Source: an uncultured Alphaproteobacteria bacterium (GTDB lineage: Bacteria > Pseudomonadota > Alphaproteobacteria > Rhodobacterales > Rhodobacteraceae). From it: DNA of 50,383 bases. The position numbers and the translations under genes were made by a program. Positions 4,241 through 49,977 of this stretch are shown here, in pieces. The DNA is taken from NCBI GenBank assembly GCA_902574225.1, contig CACGMO010000008.1, forward strand, positions 20,001-70,383, given 5' to 3'. The notes beneath the pieces were generated by a model. That model saw only the letters and a program-made list of their open reading frames with translations, was not told the origin of the DNA and ran no database searches. Position 1 is the first letter of the stretch. Each line of letters opens with the position of its first letter.

Positions 4241-4807
4241 ATGGAACCAAGTGACTTTGAAAAGAACGTAGCAAAACATATAAAGGGCAGCAAACCAGCA
4301 CCAGTTCACCTATGGAATCCGCCTTTTTGTGGAAACCTTGCGATTCACGTTGACTCAAATGGACGTTGGTATTATCAAAAGTCAGAAATAAAACGAGAAA
4401 GGCTAATAAAGCTTTTCGCAAATATTTTAAAAAAAGAAAAAGATAAATATTACTTGGTAACACCAGTTGAGAAAGTTGGAATTACAGTCGAAGATGTACC
4501 ATTTATAGCTACAGATATCGATATAATTAAAAAAGAAAAAATAGCGCTTTTTAAATTTACAACTAACGTAGGAGACTTTACCTATTTGGAGGACAATAAT
4601 CACTTCAAAATTTTATTCAAAGAATCCAATAATGAGCCTCAACCATACGTAAATGTTAGAGCCAACCTATTTGCTAAAATTGACAGAAAAAGCTTTTACC
4701 GGCTGATTGATTTTTGTACCGAGACTACCTACAGGGGCGAAAATTGGCTTGGGTTTCATTCTAATAATATATTTTTTCCTTTGATAAAGTCCCAACAACT
4801 GGATTAA
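4241..4807 (+). CDS. DUF1285 family protein
   Basis: This 188-residue protein matches the DUF1285 family. The hallmark segments are PPFCGNLAIHVDSNGRWYY near residues 28-45, LIKLFANIL, YYLVTPVEKVGITVEDVPF in the middle, and YVNVRANLFAKIDRKSFYRL near the C-terminus. The family's function is not known to me. It starts 3 bases after lldD and is likely co-transcribed with it. Its last 4 bases overlap the end of the convergent rppH. Confidence 0.8.
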   Translation: MEPSDFEKNVAKHIKGSKPAPVHLWNPPFCGNLAIHVDSNGRWYYQKSEIKRERLIKLFANILKKEKDKYYLVTPVEKVGITVEDVPFIATDIDIIKKEKIALFKFTTNVGDFTYLEDNNHFKILFKESNNEPQPYVNVRANLFAKIDRKSFYRLIDFCTETTYRGENWLGFHSNNIFFPLIKSQQLD

Positions 4808-5277
4808 TTTTTTAAATCTAGATCGAAATCTTTAAGAACAGAGTGATAAAGAGACTTTTTAAAAGGTACTATGGTTGCAAGCATATCAGTTTTTTTTGAC
4901 CATTTCCAATCTGAAAACTCTTGGTATTTTGTATTTATGTTTATGTCTTTATCAGATCCATTAAATCGGAATAAAAACCACTTTTGACTTTGGCCTCTAA
5001 ATTTTCCTCCCCAAAACTTACCTTGTATTTCTTTAGGTAGATCATAGCGATACCAAATCTTAGATTGTTTTAGAAGAGACACATTGCACTTTTCTATACC
5101 AGTCTCCTCAAACATTTCCCGATAGGCCGCTTCTAAAGGAATTTCATTATCGTCAATACCTCCTTGCGGCATTTGCCATGCCTTAGTGCTATCTAGGCGG
5201 CGACCCGTGAAAATTTTTGATTGATCATTTATAATCACTAAACCAACGCCTAAACGGTATGGAAGTGTATTAATCAT
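4804..5277 (-). CDS. rppH: RNA pyrophosphohydrolase RppH
   Basis: RppH removes pyrophosphate from the 5' triphosphate end of mRNAs, opening them to RNase E decay. The 157-residue protein has a Nudix box from about residue 39 to 61, with G39/40, the REMFEETG core at 53-60, and the RppH-type WQMPQGGID lead-in. The N-terminal LPYRLGVGLVIIN is also typical. Its start overlaps the ctpA stop by 4 bases (ATGA type), so the two are translationally coupled. The gpmI-ctpA-rppH order is familiar from alphaproteobacteria. Confidence 0.93.
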   Translation of the reverse strand: MINTLPYRLGVGLVIINDQSKIFTGRRLDSTKAWQMPQGGIDDNEIPLEAAYREMFEETGIEKCNVSLLKQSKIWYRYDLPKEIQGKFWGGKFRGQSQKWFLFRFNGSDKDININTKYQEFSDWKWSKKTDMLATIVPFKKSLYHSVLKDFDLDLKN

Positions 5278-6578
5278 TCTTTTAGGGAATAGACTGATAG
5301 GCCTTCTATCAAATCAATCGCATGAGCTAATTGGTTATCTTTATTTCTTCTCTCCGTTGTTTCTTGAAAACTCATCTCCTCTTTTCTCAGCATCTCTTTT
5401 TCAGCTTCTGTTAAGCTATCATTACTTAGAGCGCCCTCAAGGTCAGCTTCCGAAAACGTTTTCCTATTTTCCTCTTCGCTCTTCTCAACTCTTTTGAACT
5501 CTAAGAAAACATCGGGCGTCACCCCGAGTGCCTGAATAGACCTACCTGATGGCGTATAATATCTCGCCGTAGTAAGTCTAATACCACCACTTTGGCCCAT
5601 TGGAAGCACTGACTGAACTGAACCCTTTCCAAAACTCTTAGTTCCCAAAACAATACCTCTGCGATGATCTTGAAGTGCTCCTGCAACAATCTCTGATGCT
5701 GACGCTGAGCCCGCATTTATAAGAATAACTAGAGGTTTTCCTTCTGCAATGTCACCTTTGGAAGCTTTATAACGCTCTCCTTTACCCTCTCTATCTCTAG
5801 TTGACACAATCTCTCCTTGGTCTAAAAAAAGATCTGTAACTGATATAGCTTCTGACAGCAACCCTCCTGGGTTATTTCTCAAATCTAGTACAAACCCTTT
5901 TGGTTCAGCGTCACCTAATTTTTCAACTGCCTTTTTTATGCCCTCGTCAAGGTTTGGAATAGTTTGCTCATTGAAGGTAGTTACTCTCATAATTACAATG
6001 TCATTCTCTATTCTTACCTTTGCCGCTGTTAGTTTGATTACTGCCCTTGTTACTAGAACTTCAATTGGATCTTCTAAACCTTCTCTAACGATGGTTAACT
6101 TAACAGATGAACCGACAGGACCACGCATTATATCCACGGCTTCAGATAAGGTTAGACCGAGCATAGGCTTGTCATCCACAAATGTGATAAAGTCACCAGC
6201 TAACACTCCCGCTTTAAAAGCTGGTGTATCGTCCATAGGTGATACCACTTTTACGAAACCATCTTGTTGAGTAACTTCAATTCCTAAACCTCCAAAGGAT
6301 CCTTTGGTATCAACTTGCATATCATCGTAACTTTTTGGCGCTAAAAAGCCTGAGTGAGGGTCCAGAGAAGACAACATTCCATTTATTGCTGCCTCTATCA
6401 ATTCCTTGCTTTTCACTTCTTCGACATATTTGGACTTTATTAGATCGAAAACTTGACCGAAAAGATCTAGTTGCTCGTAGGTCTCCTTTTTGTTTTCTTT
6501 GGAGAGGACGGGATTAAGAGTAAAAAAGCTTAAAATAAATAAAATAACTACTAGATACTTACCCATTGAATTTGACAT
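5274..6578 (-). CDS. ctpA: C-terminal processing peptidase CtpA (S41 family)
   Basis: This is a periplasmic serine protease of 434 residues that trims C-termini of envelope proteins and, in several bacteria, controls peptidoglycan hydrolases. Residues 7-27 form a hydrophobic signal segment. A PDZ domain covers about 90-175 (GLGIEV to VREGLED). The S41 catalytic core has NAGSASASE at about 288-296 and the general-base Lys318 in KSFGKGSVQ. The C-terminal tail is charged. Relatives usually sit next to an envC-like M23 peptidase gene between gpmI and ctpA; that gene is absent here. It is coupled to rppH by a 4-base overlap. Confidence 0.93.
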   Translation of the reverse strand: MSNSMGKYLVVILFILSFFTLNPVLSKENKKETYEQLDLFGQVFDLIKSKYVEEVKSKELIEAAINGMLSSLDPHSGFLAPKSYDDMQVDTKGSFGGLGIEVTQQDGFVKVVSPMDDTPAFKAGVLAGDFITFVDDKPMLGLTLSEAVDIMRGPVGSSVKLTIVREGLEDPIEVLVTRAVIKLTAAKVRIENDIVIMRVTTFNEQTIPNLDEGIKKAVEKLGDAEPKGFVLDLRNNPGGLLSEAISVTDLFLDQGEIVSTRDREGKGERYKASKGDIAEGKPLVILINAGSASASEIVAGALQDHRRGIVLGTKSFGKGSVQSVLPMGQSGGIRLTTARYYTPSGRSIQALGVTPDVFLEFKRVEKSEEENRKTFSEADLEGALSNDSLTEAEKEMLRKEEMSFQETTERRNKDNQLAHAIDLIEGLSVYSLKE

Positions 6579-23775: not shown

Positions 23776-24624
23776 TTATTTATTCGCCGATACATAATTG
23801 AGGCATGCCTTATAGGTAATTTCTTTGCCATTTTGTCGTTGTTCACATAGTTGAATGATTTCATCTTTTATCATTGAGATTTTTTCGTTTGATAAATTTC
23901 CTTCTGATAAAATTCTTGCTCTTGGACCTATCCCCATGAGTAGTTCAGCATCTTTCACGGCGCTGTCTTTCGTAGAGATAGATGTATAAACCTTATCTAT
24001 ATTTATATTTTTAAATCCAGCTGATTCCAAGACTTCGTAAATATATTCAGGGTCACTGAATGCAAAGGGACCCGGATCTTTTGTTACCTCTGGAAGAAAA
24101 TTTCCAGTATATTTAGTTATAATATCCATACCTTCAACTATAAACTCATTCTCCATCATATTTGTCCAACACACGAAATTTAGAGAACTGTTTGTCCGCA
24201 TAGAACCATGAATATTTTTGAAGGCTTCTGAGGGACTTTCAAAAAACATTACACCAAATCGAGATATAACTTTATCAAAGTATTTTTCATCAAAAGAATA
24301 ATTCTGAGCATCACAATGCAAAAATGTCATTGTATCAATATCTGAAAATTTACTTTTCGCGTGATCAAGCAAAGTTTTCGAAATATCCGCTCCAACGACA
24401 TGTCCACCATCAGCTAATAGTTTTGACACACGAAAAGTTGTATCACCACCTCCGCACCCGATATCTAGAACTTTATCCGATGCCTTTATCTTCGCTCTAG
24501 TAAAAAGTTCATTTGTTAGTATCGATAATCGCTCATTCAATGAATCCTCATTTTTGACCCACTTGGGTCCAGATTTTTCATTCCAGTATTCGGATTGTTC
24601 TACGTTGATAATTTTGTGTTTCAT
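23776..24624 (-). CDS. Class I SAM-dependent methyltransferase
   Basis: This 282-residue protein has the SAM-binding Rossmann motif VLDIGCGGGDTTFRVSKLL near residues 49-67, VVGADISKTLLDHAKSKF (motif II) and FLHCDAQNYSFDEKYFDKVISRFGVMFF (post-I/III), as in UbiE-like methyltransferases. The acceptor is unknown. It starts 14 bases after the iron-sulfur cyclase gene ends, on the same strand, so it is likely part of that operon. It has no sign of a membrane segment. Confidence 0.85.
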   Translation of the reverse strand: MKHKIINVEQSEYWNEKSGPKWVKNEDSLNERLSILTNELFTRAKIKASDKVLDIGCGGGDTTFRVSKLLADGGHVVGADISKTLLDHAKSKFSDIDTMTFLHCDAQNYSFDEKYFDKVISRFGVMFFESPSEAFKNIHGSMRTNSSLNFVCWTNMMENEFIVEGMDIITKYTGNFLPEVTKDPGPFAFSDPEYIYEVLESAGFKNINIDKVYTSISTKDSAVKDAELLMGIGPRARILSEGNLSNEKISMIKDEIIQLCEQRQNGKEITYKACLNYVSANK

Positions 24625-24638
24625 ATCGTGCTCTGCTT

Positions 24639-26420
24639 TTAAGGTTTCTGAATCCAGATATAGCTATCATCTTCCCGAGTGGGAATAACCGTAAGTGGCT
24701 CACAATCTTTTTCTACTTCTTTGGGTTGTAGTCCAACCCATTTTCTCACTTCACCTGATCTAAAACAAAACTCACTATTATGATAAGGACATAAGATAGT
24801 TCCTTCATCTGTAATCTGACCTATGTCCAATGGTAAATTCATATGGGGGCATATGTTCTCAATAGCAAAGATGCCTTCCTGATTTATAAGAAGAAATTCT
24901 TTTCCATCATATTCAAACTTTTTCTTTTCTCCGACATCAAGCTCACTAATAGGCAAAGTCCTTATCCAAGTATTGCCATCAATCTCTTTTACTTTAATAT
25001 CAGAGTGGTCAACTAACTTAGCTTTATTTAGAACGCTAACCTCATGCAAGGTAATTAAATTACTAGATCCCCTTAATTTTAATCGCACAAAATTTCTTAC
25101 ATCAACAGCATCTTTAATTCTTTCATAAGCAACATCGGAAATAAGAAAACGTGTTCCCGCCTCTTTATTTATAGCTTCAATTCTACTAGCAATATTTACA
25201 GTGTCTCCAATTATGGTAAATTTCTTGTCTTCACCGAAACCAACAGAGCCTAGGATGGCTTCACCATAATGAACACCTATTCGTATATCAAAATCTCTAC
25301 CGTAAGCTTGAGACAGATAATCCTTAAATTCGTCCATAGCTTGTAGCATTTCTAATGCCGTGTTTGCTGCTCTAAGCGTCTGTTGTCTTGAGTCTTTGAG
25401 ACCAAAGATAGCCAAAATTGCATCACCAATATAATTATTTATCTCTCCACCGTTTTTAATAATGATTTCGCGCATTATAGAGATGTATCGATTTAAAATG
25501 AAAATCACGTCATAAGCAGCAAGCGCTTCGGAAAAGGGTGTAAAACCTTTGATATCGCAAAACATTACCGTCAGATTTCTAATGGTACCAACAGACTCTA
25601 GTTTCGTATCGGACAATTTATTTGAATTACTCAAATCTCGCTTGTCTAGGAGAAGTCTTCTATAAGAAACAGGTCCACTTATTGTGGTTTGGCAGGCAAG
25701 TCTTATGTTATCTGGAAAGGAAAGCTTATCCGATAGCTTTTTCTCAGCATCAGACCTCGTAGAACAATTTTCTAATCCTTCTGTAATTTCAACTCTGCAA
25801 GTTGAGCATTTTCCAGTACCTCCACAAGCGCTTAAGTGAGATATATTGTTTCTTATTGACGCAGTGAGGATTGTTTCATTAACACCTACCTCTATTTCTT
25901 TTTTGTCAGGCTGAACCAGCGCAGAAAAAAGATCTCCATCATTGAGACTTTGATGTAGTTTATTGTGACTGCCATCACAGAAAGGTTTGTTTTTTGTTTT
26001 TTTACATGTGCAGAAATATTTCGCTTCTGATTTTTCTGCTACATATTTTAAGGGTGTGAATTCACTGCCCGCATGACTGCCATCGCAGAAAGGCTGATTT
26101 TTACTTTTTCCACAACTACACCAAAAGTAGCTTTTATCTTTCTCGACGTTATGAGGTATAGGTTTAAATTCCATGATCTTTGTATCATCGAGGATTGTCT
26201 CTAATTTATCATGGCTACCATCACAGAAAGGTTTGTTTCTTGTCTTTTTACATGTGCAGAAATATTTCGTCTCTGTTTTTTCCGCTACATATTTTAAGGG
26301 TGCGAGTGCACTACCCACATGACTACCATCGCAGAAAGGCTGATTTTTACTCTTTCCACAACTGCACCAAAAGTAGCTTTTATCTTTCTCGACATCATGA
26401 GGTATGGGTTTAAATTTCAT
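24639..26420 (-). CDS. Class III nucleotide cyclase fused to four CDGSH motifs, a ferredoxin and a Rieske domain
   Basis: This 593-residue protein joins four recognisable parts. Residues 1-155 hold four CDGSH iron-sulfur motifs (ligands C19/C21/C30/H34, C55/C57/C66/H70, C101/C103/C112/H116, C137/C139/C148/H152), built as two copies of an 82-residue unit. Residues 170-255 form a [2Fe-2S] ferredoxin domain (C199, C205, C208, C243). Residues 280-460 are a class III adenylate/guanylate cyclase domain: FCDIKGF with metal-binding Asp289, YIGDAILAIFG with Asp333, and VNIASR with Asn409/Arg413. Residues 485-590 form a NirD-like Rieske domain (C524-P-H526, C544-P-Y-H547). All ligands are intact, so it could carry up to six clusters and make a cyclic nucleotide in response to redox, oxygen, NO or iron. 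That role is inference. No signal peptide or membrane segment is seen, so it is probably cytoplasmic. It lies 24 bases after the upstream small gene and 14 before the methyltransferase. Confidence 0.85.
   Translation of the reverse strand: MKFKPIPHDVEKDKSYFWCSCGKSKNQPFCDGSHVGSALAPLKYVAEKTETKYFCTCKKTRNKPFCDGSHDKLETILDDTKIMEFKPIPHNVEKDKSYFWCSCGKSKNQPFCDGSHAGSEFTPLKYVAEKSEAKYFCTCKKTKNKPFCDGSHNKLHQSLNDGDLFSALVQPDKKEIEVGVNETILTASIRNNISHLSACGGTGKCSTCRVEITEGLENCSTRSDAEKKLSDKLSFPDNIRLACQTTISGPVSYRRLLLDKRDLSNSNKLSDTKLESVGTIRNLTVMFCDIKGFTPFSEALAAYDVIFILNRYISIMREIIIKNGGEINNYIGDAILAIFGLKDSRQQTLRAANTALEMLQAMDEFKDYLSQAYGRDFDIRIGVHYGEAILGSVGFGEDKKFTIIGDTVNIASRIEAINKEAGTRFLISDVAYERIKDAVDVRNFVRLKLRGSSNLITLHEVSVLNKAKLVDHSDIKVKEIDGNTWIRTLPISELDVGEKKKFEYDGKEFLLINQEGIFAIENICPHMNLPLDIGQITDEGTILCPYHNSEFCFRSGEVRKWVGLQPKEVEKDCEPLTVIPTREDDSYIWIQKP
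25956..26420 (-). repeat. Tandem duplication of the double-CDGSH coding unit (246-base period)
   Basis: Within the cyclase gene, codons 1-73 recur at codons 83-155. The second copy begins at 26174, exactly 246 bases after the first at 26420. Protein copies differ at only a few residues, and the DNA copies are also nearly the same by eye (only occasional mismatches near each copy start), so the duplication looks recent or is kept uniform by gene conversion. Confidence 0.8.
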
Positions 26421-26444: not shown

Positions 26445-26846
26445 CTAATCTTTTTTTACCTTTTTGACAACAATTCTATATCGCGAATCAAATGTCTTTT
26501 TCTCAGAATTAACTATTAAATACTCAATCTGGCTGGATTTAATTGAAATTCTTACTTTCGTTCCTATAAATTTACGATATTCCACATCGTCCCTGATAGT
26601 TAGCGTGTATCGACCTGGGATTAACCTTTTCTTGAAAATCTGATTTTCTCCTAGCATCCCCAAAACTTTACCATTCAAAATAACTGTGAAACGGCCAAAC
26701 ATGCCAGGTAATCCAGTGGAACGACCAAGTACAAGTGTACCGTGATGAGAAGATGTGGAAGCAACATATAATAAATGGGGAGAGGCACCAACACCGCTAG
26801 AGATCAACGCGAAAATCAGCGTGAATATTTGAAACAGCCTTACCAT
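26445..26846 (-). CDS. Small secreted protein of unknown function
   Basis: This 133-residue protein has a signal peptide (MVRLFQIFTLIFALISSGVGA, cleavage near residue 21). The mature part is beta-rich, with GRFTVILNGKVLGML, PGRYTLTIRDD and KVRISIKSSQIEYLIV, which resembles small beta-sandwich periplasmic proteins of the DUF2846 sort; I cannot confirm a family. The C-terminus is basic (VVKKVKKD). It is the first gene of a three-gene leftward run with the Fe-S cyclase and the methyltransferase. A -10-like TATACT lies about 10 bases before its start. Confidence 0.55.
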   Translation of the reverse strand: MVRLFQIFTLIFALISSGVGASPHLLYVASTSSHHGTLVLGRSTGLPGMFGRFTVILNGKVLGMLGENQIFKKRLIPGRYTLTIRDDVEYRKFIGTKVRISIKSSQIEYLIVNSEKKTFDSRYRIVVKKVKKD

Positions 26847-48120: not shown

Positions 48121-49977
48121 ATAAATAGAAAACTAGCTGTTATTTTTGCAACTGACGTCGTTGGCTATAGCAAGCATATGGAAAAAAATGAGAATGAGTC
48201 AGTAAAAACTCTTCGAGCGTGCGAAAATATTCTTAAAGATCTGTTCAAAAAATATGAAGGCCGGCTTTTTAATTCTGGTGGAGACTCTTTCTTTGCCGAA
48301 TTTCCTAGTGCCGTATCAGCTGTTGAATGCGCATCTGAATTTCAAGAACGACTTAATAAATTTTACTCTCAGAATGATCTCCCAATTAAGCTACAATTTC
48401 GAGTTGGAATACATATGGGTGACGTAATAAAAGAAAAGCGAAATCTTCTTGGAGATGGCGTTAATATTGCAGCGAGACTAGAGGCCTTGGCTCAACCCTC
48501 GGGAGTAACAATTTCCAAGTCAATTTTTGATTTGGTTGAAGGAAAAGTAGATTTATCCTTCAATGATCTTGGTTTACAAAAAGTTAAAGAAAACGAATTT
48601 CATGCCTATGATATTCTTTTGAGTAAATCGCAAAAGCGAACTCTAAGAAAATCTTCAAAGCCGATACTCCGGTATTTAGGGATGGTAGCCTCCGTATTCG
48701 CAGTTGTAACTATTGGAATTATTTTTTATCTCCAATCAGATACAAAACCAGTAAGCAAAACCCAAACAATGCCAATTGATAAACCCTCAATTTTGGTAAT
48801 ACCTTTTGAAAATCAAACAGGAAATTCTGATAATGATTTCATCGGATTTGGGGTAACAAGCAATATAATCTCCACATTATCTATTAATGACTCAATATTA
48901 GTATCTTCTTCCAGCACCGGGAAATATGTTCAAGAAAAAAATTATACTGACGAAGAAATTTCACAGAACTATGGGGTTCAATATCTTCTGAGAGGAGATG
49001 TTCAGGGTACCGAGGGAGCCTTTCGTGTCACATTGCAAATGACTGATCTTAAGAGAAGTGAGGTTGTATGGTCAAAGCTTTTTGATTTTGGAGAATTAAA
49101 ACAGCTTTTCCCTGTTCAAGAAAAGATAAGTTTAGCAATTCTGGAACAGCTTAGTGTTAAAACACGGGGTTCACAGCTATCCGATATAAACTATTTTACT
49201 AACCCAGAGGCGTATAGAAATTATCTTAACGCTTGGTCTGCTTTTGGCCTTAAAACTGTGGAGGGAAGTCAAAAAGCTGAAAAGCTTTGGAGAAAAGCTA
49301 TTGAGTTAGATCCCGACAACCGGCGATTAAATTTTATGATGGCTTGGGTTAATTGGAGAAAGGTTACAATGAGGATCTCTGACAACCCAAAAAAGGATAT
49401 GGAGAAAGCCTATACCATTGCATTGAATGCTATTGATGAGTTTCCCGAATGGACAACGCCTAAAGCTCTAGCAGGCTTAATTGAATTATTTTTAAAAAAG
49501 TTTGATGAAGCCTGTGGAAGGATACCTACTCTATTACAAGCTTCAAAAGATCATTCAGATTTAGGTATGGTAAATCTAGTTATTCACTCCTGTGGCAGGT
49601 TAGAAGAAGCAATTGAAAACTATGAAAAAATAATGTTGTCGAATCCCCACCATGCGGCGTGGATATTTTATATGTACAATCACGCTTTAATTGAAAATAA
49701 ACAATATGAGAAATCTGAGAGCTTCGCTCTTACGAAATTAAATGAAAAGCATAATTGGAGTGGGGTTGACCAAACATTATATTTGCAGCTTGCTTATCTG
49801 TATGAGATGAAGGGAAGTAAAAAGAAGGCAAAAAAAATGTTCGAGCTACATAAAGCCATCGACGGAAAGGGTAAAACAGGTGAAATTATTCATAAGGAAT
49901 ATATTACCGCTAGAGACAAGACTTATCTCAATGAATTAATATCTGCCTTAAAACCATATGGACTTTTAGAAAAATAA
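48121..49977 (+). CDS. Class III adenylate cyclase with TolB-like and TPR region; non-canonical start likely
   Basis: The domain order is cyclase (about 1-165), one transmembrane segment (about 184-204), a TolB/FlgO-like domain (SILVIPFENQTGNSDND to about 345) and TPR-like helices to the end. This is a common alphaproteobacterial cyclase type. The first ATG (48178) would cut off the conserved first strand. The frame continues upstream as NRKLAVIFATDVVGYSKHM with the metal-binding Asp (codon 48154), and the family's Met position is an ATA (48121); ATT (48112) and CTG (48082) are the other in-frame starts after the TGA at 48070. GAGAG lies 7 bases before the ATT. If ATG 48178 were used, the protein would lack a catalytic Asp. 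Numbering is from the ATA (618 residues). Confidence 0.8.
   Translation: MNRKLAVIFATDVVGYSKHMEKNENESVKTLRACENILKDLFKKYEGRLFNSGGDSFFAEFPSAVSAVECASEFQERLNKFYSQNDLPIKLQFRVGIHMGDVIKEKRNLLGDGVNIAARLEALAQPSGVTISKSIFDLVEGKVDLSFNDLGLQKVKENEFHAYDILLSKSQKRTLRKSSKPILRYLGMVASVFAVVTIGIIFYLQSDTKPVSKTQTMPIDKPSILVIPFENQTGNSDNDFIGFGVTSNIISTLSINDSILVSSSSTGKYVQEKNYTDEEISQNYGVQYLLRGDVQGTEGAFRVTLQMTDLKRSEVVWSKLFDFGELKQLFPVQEKISLAILEQLSVKTRGSQLSDINYFTNPEAYRNYLNAWSAFGLKTVEGSQKAEKLWRKAIELDPDNRRLNFMMAWVNWRKVTMRISDNPKKDMEKAYTIALNAIDEFPEWTTPKALAGLIELFLKKFDEACGRIPTLLQASKDHSDLGMVNLVIHSCGRLEEAIENYEKIMLSNPHHAAWIFYMYNHALIENKQYEKSESFALTKLNEKHNWSGVDQTLYLQLAYLYEMKGSKKKAKKMFELHKAIDGKGKTGEIIHKEYITARDKTYLNELISALKPYGLLEK

Follow-up and report, generated by a model that had tools for sequence, protein, structure and literature searches.

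Our analyses have identified a 593-residue protein (P0001), encoded in a 50,383-nucleotide stretch of DNA from an uncultured member of the Alphaproteobacteria (hereafter the window), in which a class III cyclase domain is preceded by CDGSH motifs and a ferredoxin (Fer2) domain and followed by a Rieske domain. The domain combination is conserved, and the purifying selection estimated for its ligand-bearing domains indicates that it has been selected to function. On balance, P0001 probably acts as a soluble, homodimeric cyclase of class III, with an output that depends on the redox state of bound [2Fe-2S] clusters. The apparently new part is the CDGSH addition; the redox-regulated Fer2-cyclase kind is already known from CyaC.

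All four domain families exceed their curated Pfam cut-offs within one open reading frame (ORF) (Table 1), and the plus strand of positions 24639-26420 contains many stops in frame 1. The Pfam family zf-CDGSH matches P0001 in four stretches (E 4.8e-36), with the ligand sets C19 C21 C30 H34, C55 C57 C66 H70, C101 C103 C112 H116, and C137 C139 C148 H152. The Fer2 ligands (C199 C205 C208 C243) fit the plant-type pattern C-x5-C-x2-C-xn-C and those of the Rieske domain (C524 H526 C544 H547) fit C-x-H ... C-x2-H. Within 20,000 shuffles of P0001 the CDGSH motif arose 0 times, the Rieske spacing 37 times, and the Fer2 spacing 257 times. Judged from these residues, the chain can hold up to six predicted [2Fe-2S] sites (viz. 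four 3Cys:1His, one 4Cys, and one 2Cys:2His). The initial annotation had described a single protein of this length with 12 Cys and 4 His in CDGSH motifs, a four-Cys ferredoxin domain, a cyclase domain with Asp289, Asp333, Asn409, and Arg413 intact, and a Rieske motif behind the cyclase; residue positions and Pfam matches bear this out, as does the alignment for the cyclase residues. Points that go beyond it are the minus-strand location of the gene, the tandem duplication of the CDGSH pairs in the DNA, and the non-canonical purine-site residues N329 and T402. No 19-residue stretch of P0001 has membrane-span strength (highest mean 1.13), and the protein is predicted to be without a membrane anchor. 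An AlphaFold model (mean pLDDT 76.7, pTM 0.43) is fair for single domains and, at this pTM, is therefore silent on domain arrangement, cluster distances, and electron path. For its cyclase part, Foldseek returned 3r5g_A (TM 0.84) and 2w01_B (TM 0.87) (scores on target); sequence matches of the cyclase domain to solved structures also gave 3r5g (CyaB) and 2w01, the latter carrying the name adenylate cyclase among the sequence matches and the title "guanylyl cyclase Cya2" among those of Foldseek.

Table 1. Positions in the window of the P0001 gene, its domains, and its flanking genes
Feature	Position	Strand	Characteristics
Downstream neighbour, SAM methyltransferase	23776..24624	minus	14-base gap; co-transcription possible; adjacency to the cyclase not constant across lineages
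Gene for the 593-aa CDGSH2-CDGSH2-Fer2-cyclase-Rieske protein (P0001)	24639..26420	minus	ORF, ATG start, Pfam
Rieske [2Fe-2S] domain, Pfam match residues 485-561	24738..24968	minus	Pfam E 1.2e-14
Class III cyclase domain, residues 280-453	25062..25583	minus	Pfam Guanylate_cyc E 2e-25; D289, D333, N409, R413; purine positions N329, T402
Fer2 [2Fe-2S] domain, residues 170-247	25680..25913	minus	Pfam E 1.2e-10; four Cys ligands and conserved fifth Cys219
Second CDGSH pair, about residues 86-153, two 3Cys:1His sites	25962..26165	minus	Pfam; kept in 22/22 CDGSH-bearing sequences
Tandem DNA repeat making both CDGSH pairs	25972..26420	minus	Period 246, 1.8 copies, 91% matches
First CDGSH pair, residues 4-71, type 6 CISD-like, two 3Cys:1His sites	26208..26411	minus	Pfam; PDB 3tbn match E 1.2e-22
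Upstream neighbour, 133 aa, no Pfam family above cut-off	26445..26846	minus	24-base gap

Fifty ORFs from the fetched loci passed a motif selection, and the collapsing of near-identical cores left 27 distinct sequences, 22 of which, including that of the window, carry CDGSH motifs. Because a sequence was selected only if it had the cyclase motif, which includes D289, a CGG motif, which includes C199, and one CDGSH-like or Rieske-like motif, the conservation of D289, C199, and the CDGSH or Rieske motifs is partly built in, that of the other ligands not. One locus (L060) was missed by the selection pattern and is absent from the 27, and another (L020) is a contig-cut member and not a truly CDGSH-less one. 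All of the 22 CDGSH-bearing sequences retain an intact proximal CDGSH pair; the Fer2 ligands are complete in 21 (the remaining one has an unreadable letter) and the Rieske ligands in 20 (one unreadable letter, one contig cut), and D289, D333, N409, and R413 of the cyclase are present in 22/22 of these and in 27/27 aligned sequences. A non-ligand residue of the Fer2 domain, Cys219, is likewise Cys in 27/27. Within the genus, dN/dS is 0.063-0.132 for CDGSH pair 2 (eight orthologues) and, with nine orthologues each, 0.034-0.117 for Fer2, 0-0.022 for the cyclase, and 0.036-0.078 for the Rieske domain; these estimates cover the four named parts in comparisons within the genus, as dS is saturated in most of the more distant ones. 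An assembly artefact or chance fusion is rejected, since the 22 distinct sequences come from separate genomes.

The CDGSH-bearing sequences are distributed among marine Alphaproteobacteria and SAR324. A scan of GTDB genome contigs yielded 23 loci, of which 21 have the architecture and two match in the cyclase part only; among the 21, contig ends truncate L026 and L032, and L042 has an unreadable letter at a Rieske ligand. Within the genus, the gene was found in 13 of 22 genomes (cut by contig ends in two of the 13) and was missing from two genomes that are about 90 and 91% complete; this patchiness indicates that it has no core function. Two genus genomes without it (G004, G007) retain the flanking methyltransferase with other genes beside it, which marks it as an accessory gene and gives no clean empty site. 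In wider draws, CDGSH-bearing forms were present in 3/394 genomes of the family (the window's own genome, G519, and G549) and in 2/385 of the class (the own genome and G853, yielding the same place as the genome that carries locus L040), and the own genome was the sole match among 292 of the order, 291 of which are highly complete, unlike the gene-carrying genomes. The family draw also held Fer2-cyclase-Rieske proteins without CDGSH in G405, G446, and G454, with G549 holding one as its second copy (by Pfam in G405 and G549), and the class draw a Fer2-cyclase protein only (G663). Within the phylum, 17/398 genomes match at E up to 1e-50, with the CDGSH part covered only in the own genome and a Rieske domain seen by motif in G1233. 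Eleven of these 17 genomes belong to one family (f188; e.g. L078, L079, L080), whose open frames of 307-387 aa have Fer2 and cyclase alone covered among the matches listed. In the family of the SAR324 member L036, 3/31 genomes carry the CDGSH-bearing form and 2 a form with Rieske but without CDGSH.

Mobile elements were also considered as a source. None of 509 matching plasmid records covers 80% of P0001, by which a plasmid-borne family is rejected; the plasmid matches include a Fer2-cyclase-Rieske protein in Rhizobium etli and, among the matches listed, one of the same extent in R. gallicum. A viral origin is likewise rejected, as a scan of IMG/VR with P0001, which reaches close relatives only, found no relative. 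Among the genomes, plasmids, and viral contigs sampled, CDGSH on a Fer2-cyclase-Rieske protein was met in no sequence outside one clade. As support for its reading the initial annotation had named either a lack of further matches or a conserved clade of small size, and it is the second that holds, with 22 distinct sequences in one clade and their ligands kept.

In a tree of the Fer2-cyclase part (39 rows, midpoint root), the CDGSH-bearing sequences form one clade (100/100), in which the contig-cut L020 is the only label exception, and which is nested among Fer2-cyclase-Rieske proteins; the CyaC-type cyclases form a separate group, and a long-branch warning names the CyaC-type rows and L067. 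The Fer2-cyclase-Rieske proteins without CDGSH (e.g. L052 from Rhizobium etli) share the domain order of P0001 at 37-53% identity, their Rieske domains being recognized by Pfam in L056, L059, L068, and L069 and by motif only in L058, L060, and L077. Seven of them (viz. L052, L056, L058, L059, L060, L068, and L069) share a wider clade with the CDGSH forms, L077 having been left out of the tree. The Fer2-cyclase-Rieske protein thus appears to be older and wider than the CDGSH-bearing form, and on the simplest reading a Fer2-cyclase would have gained a Rieske domain, after which one CISD module was fused in front, once. SAR324 is a phylum of its own in GTDB, and because the CDGSH clade spans both it and the Alphaproteobacteria, transfer between them is likely. 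The unfamiliarity of the domain combination, claimed in the initial annotation, stands for the CDGSH addition and falls for Fer2-cyclase-Rieske, which occurs in Rhizobium, the same family, another alphaproteobacterium, and a SAR324 family, and of which no description was found among the papers listed by literature searches on the combination. A CDGSH-cyclase protein was not found in literature searches requiring CDGSH and a cyclase term, in which subscription journals are thinly covered; the matches were a rat brain study with each term once and two Anabaena papers, taken to match by the gene name cdgSH.

Type 6 CISD proteins carry tandem CDGSH motifs about 20 residues apart (PMC3174974), and the 20 residues between H34 and C55, and likewise between H116 and C137, place both pairs of P0001 in this type. 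Residues 4-71 have the same tandem pair of 3Cys:1His sites as the type 6 CISD 3tbn from Magnetospirillum, and residues 5-69 match CISD3/Miner2 (PDB 6avj), also a tandem CDGSH pair, at E 7.7e-16; these are small proteins, whereas the modules of P0001 are fused to a cyclase chain. In PMC3174974, whose main text has 0 occurrences of "cyclase", the named fusion partners of CISDs are a glutamate synthase domain for type 5 and DUF1271 for type 7. Small CDGSH ORFs (mostly 71-96 aa) are present apart from the cyclase in most genus genomes (e.g. G000:C15:25600-25689), including some that lack the cyclase; no CDGSH match was obtained in G001 or G010.

The distal CDGSH pair is present and intact in 9/22 of the CDGSH-bearing sequences. 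Where both pairs are present, their DNA identity to each other is 89% in the window's protein, 89-96% in its subclade (seven sequences), 99.4% in G013, and 73-77% in SAR324 (two sequences), and a tree of the CDGSH modules, with many weak forks, separates the cases of G013, the window's subclade, and SAR324. The module has been doubled after the fusion, apparently several times, three separate doublings being the simplest reading; losses with gene conversion offer an alternative that is not the simplest. In one SAR324 genome four stops break the full-length match, and the ORF retains only one CDGSH pair.

The nearest characterised relative of P0001 is CyaC of S. meliloti, and to our knowledge the control of cyclic-nucleotide synthesis by an iron-sulfur-centre protein is known only from CyaC. 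CyaC is a class III adenylate cyclase with a diheme-B anchor of six transmembrane helices and a [2Fe-2S] centre (PMC10463352, citing Wissig et al., 2019), and it is a quinone-responsive, redox-regulated cyclase, for which the account in PMC10463352 credits redox switching to the hemes and does not credit the [2Fe-2S] cluster as the switch. We have compared P0001 with two proteins of the CyaC type, both 26-28% identical to it, viz. L054, a protein annotated CyaC on plasmid pSymB of S. meliloti strain Ak57 (the studied CyaC is SMc01818, from another strain), and L061, a 577-aa paralogue in the window's own genome (positions 4650-6383 of this locus, minus strand) with a part at the N-terminus that is hydrophobic by eye, Fer2, and cyclase. 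In both, as in P0001, Fer2 lies directly in front of the class III cyclase; in contrast to the six-helix diheme B membrane anchor of CyaC, P0001 has no strongly hydrophobic stretch and bears CDGSH modules at its N-terminus, and it further differs by the Rieske domain behind the cyclase and by Asn for Lys at the purine site. The CxH-x17-CxxH motif of this Rieske domain is that of the HcaC-like Rieske ferredoxins of aromatic dioxygenases, from which it differs in being fused to a cyclase; the NCBIfam HcaC match to P0001 (E 1.1e-9) is far below its cut-off. The CDGSH cyclase is preceded, at a distance of about 1 kb, by a CyaC-type gene in three loci of a sister group (L028, L031, L033).

The Fer2-cyclase unit shared with CyaC, the lack of a membrane anchor, and the CyaC-type paralogue and neighbours are the grounds on which a soluble redox-gated cyclase is proposed. 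The chain would dimerise and bind its [2Fe-2S] clusters, and electrons from a soluble donor would enter or leave via the CDGSH and Rieske clusters, the CDGSH module replacing the diheme-B input that CyaC has in the membrane. The Fer2 cluster beside the cyclase would then act as the switch, its redox state altering the cyclase dimer, so that the cyclic nucleotide would report the cytosolic redox state. A more tentative extension, which we regard as possible and somewhat doubtful, is that the mitoNEET-type CDGSH modules are the sensory input, with up to six clusters of three ligand types serving as a charge store or electron path through which the cytosolic redox state is metered into cAMP or cGMP, and with their copy number tuned by repeated tandem duplication. 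The initial annotation had proposed a redox-, NO- or iron-sensing cyclase, of which redox control gains from the fit with CyaC, with NO and iron as further candidate cues and cAMP and cGMP as the candidate products.

P0001 has the Asp pair and Asn/Arg of class III cyclases and departs from the canonical purine-specifying pair (Lys with Asp or Thr for ATP, Glu with various residues for GTP), the ATP-specifying Lys being replaced by Asn; the pair N329/T402 is present in 22/22 CDGSH-bearing sequences, so that by sequence the product may be cAMP or cGMP. Lys/Thr is retained in both of the CyaC-type cyclases compared. At the first purine site the adenylate cyclase Rv1900c likewise carries Asn, which speaks against cGMP. 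Adenylate cyclases have Lys/Asp, guanylate cyclases have Glu at the first site, where P0001 has Asn, and Thr at the second site occurs in some of both (PMC4215837), so that Thr402 is compatible with cGMP. A weak hint towards cGMP comes from the gene order guaB-CDGSH cyclase-guaA (L040 6531-11077, L041 1423-4901; gaps 3 to 32 bases), in which the flanking ORFs look, by eye, like the GTP biosynthesis genes for IMP dehydrogenase and GMP synthase, but this linkage is limited to two loci of one lineage. With moderate confidence we consider cAMP the likelier product, and an output of cGMP, which would be compatible with each of the sensor models, appears rather unlikely.

A second class III cyclase-like ORF (48178-49977, plus strand, 599 aa) in the window is a weak match to the P0001 cyclase domain, and on visual inspection its long C-terminal region resembles a transmembrane segment and repeats. 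Twenty-one of the 22 genus genomes (all but G001) hold 5 to 17 matches to P0001, mostly to the cyclase domain among the matches listed, which is a high number for genomes that are partial and measure 1.3-2.3 Mb. In the own genome, six cNMP-binding domains are above cut-off (L070-L075), five of them in frames of 109-157 aa and one adjoining a putative hydrolase-cyclase fusion. CRP is longer than 109-157 aa, and the downstream cAMP targets may be other than CRP-type regulators.

A conserved operon that would name the signal was sought in 21 loci and not found. Both neighbours of the gene are kept in L024 and L029 and the upstream one only in L034; otherwise the setting changes, and the gene is thus an accessory one at differing sites. 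Only a methyltransferase (6/21, on either strand) and a short-chain dehydrogenase (6/21) recur across lineages, and they name no pathway because both clusters are loose and generic; in L035, L037, and L038 a methyltransferase of the same loose cluster is near the gene on the other strand. No redox partner is among the recurrent neighbours of the 21 loci, which counts against the redox-gated reading. Promoter-like sites around the gene number 18, against 18.3 in shuffles.

An unlikely alternative is a sensor of iron or Fe-S sufficiency, in which labile CDGSH clusters would be loaded or lost with the iron-sulfur supply and the apo or holo state would gate the cyclase. CDGSH clusters have one His ligand, and low pH destabilises the cluster of mitoNEET and Miner1 (PMC3174974), and the variation of the CDGSH pair number (1 or 2) among close strains suits capacity or affinity over a fixed electron path; however, a loading sensor would have no need of two more cluster types, and 0/7 window neighbours are iron or Fe-S assembly proteins by Pfam. 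Gating by nitric oxide or reactive oxygen, through attack on a cluster or on Cys219, is improbable: the invariance of this non-ligand Cys in the 27 aligned sequences favours it, but Cys219 may be structural, and 0/7 window neighbours are NO or oxidative-stress proteins by Pfam. Least probable of all is domain accretion, in which the extra iron-sulfur domains would be a scaffold or electron carriers unrelated to the cyclase, for although the CDGSH copy number is variable, Fer2-cyclase-alone matches are frequent in the phylum draw, and L067 is Fer2-cyclase only, the ligands are kept from Alphaproteobacteria to SAR324 with dN/dS of 0.03-0.13 in the cluster domains.

The biochemical role of CDGSH domains is still debated. 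If the redox-gated reading, or the iron-sulfur one, is true, CDGSH domains would gain a direct enzymatic readout and the cell a soluble path by which its redox or iron-sulfur state reaches a second messenger, and the natural versions with 1 and 2 modules would suit the testing of dose effects. A predicted CDGSH-bearing cyclase is conserved in some marine bacteria, and our results suggest that they convert their redox or iron-sulfur state directly into a cyclic-nucleotide signal.
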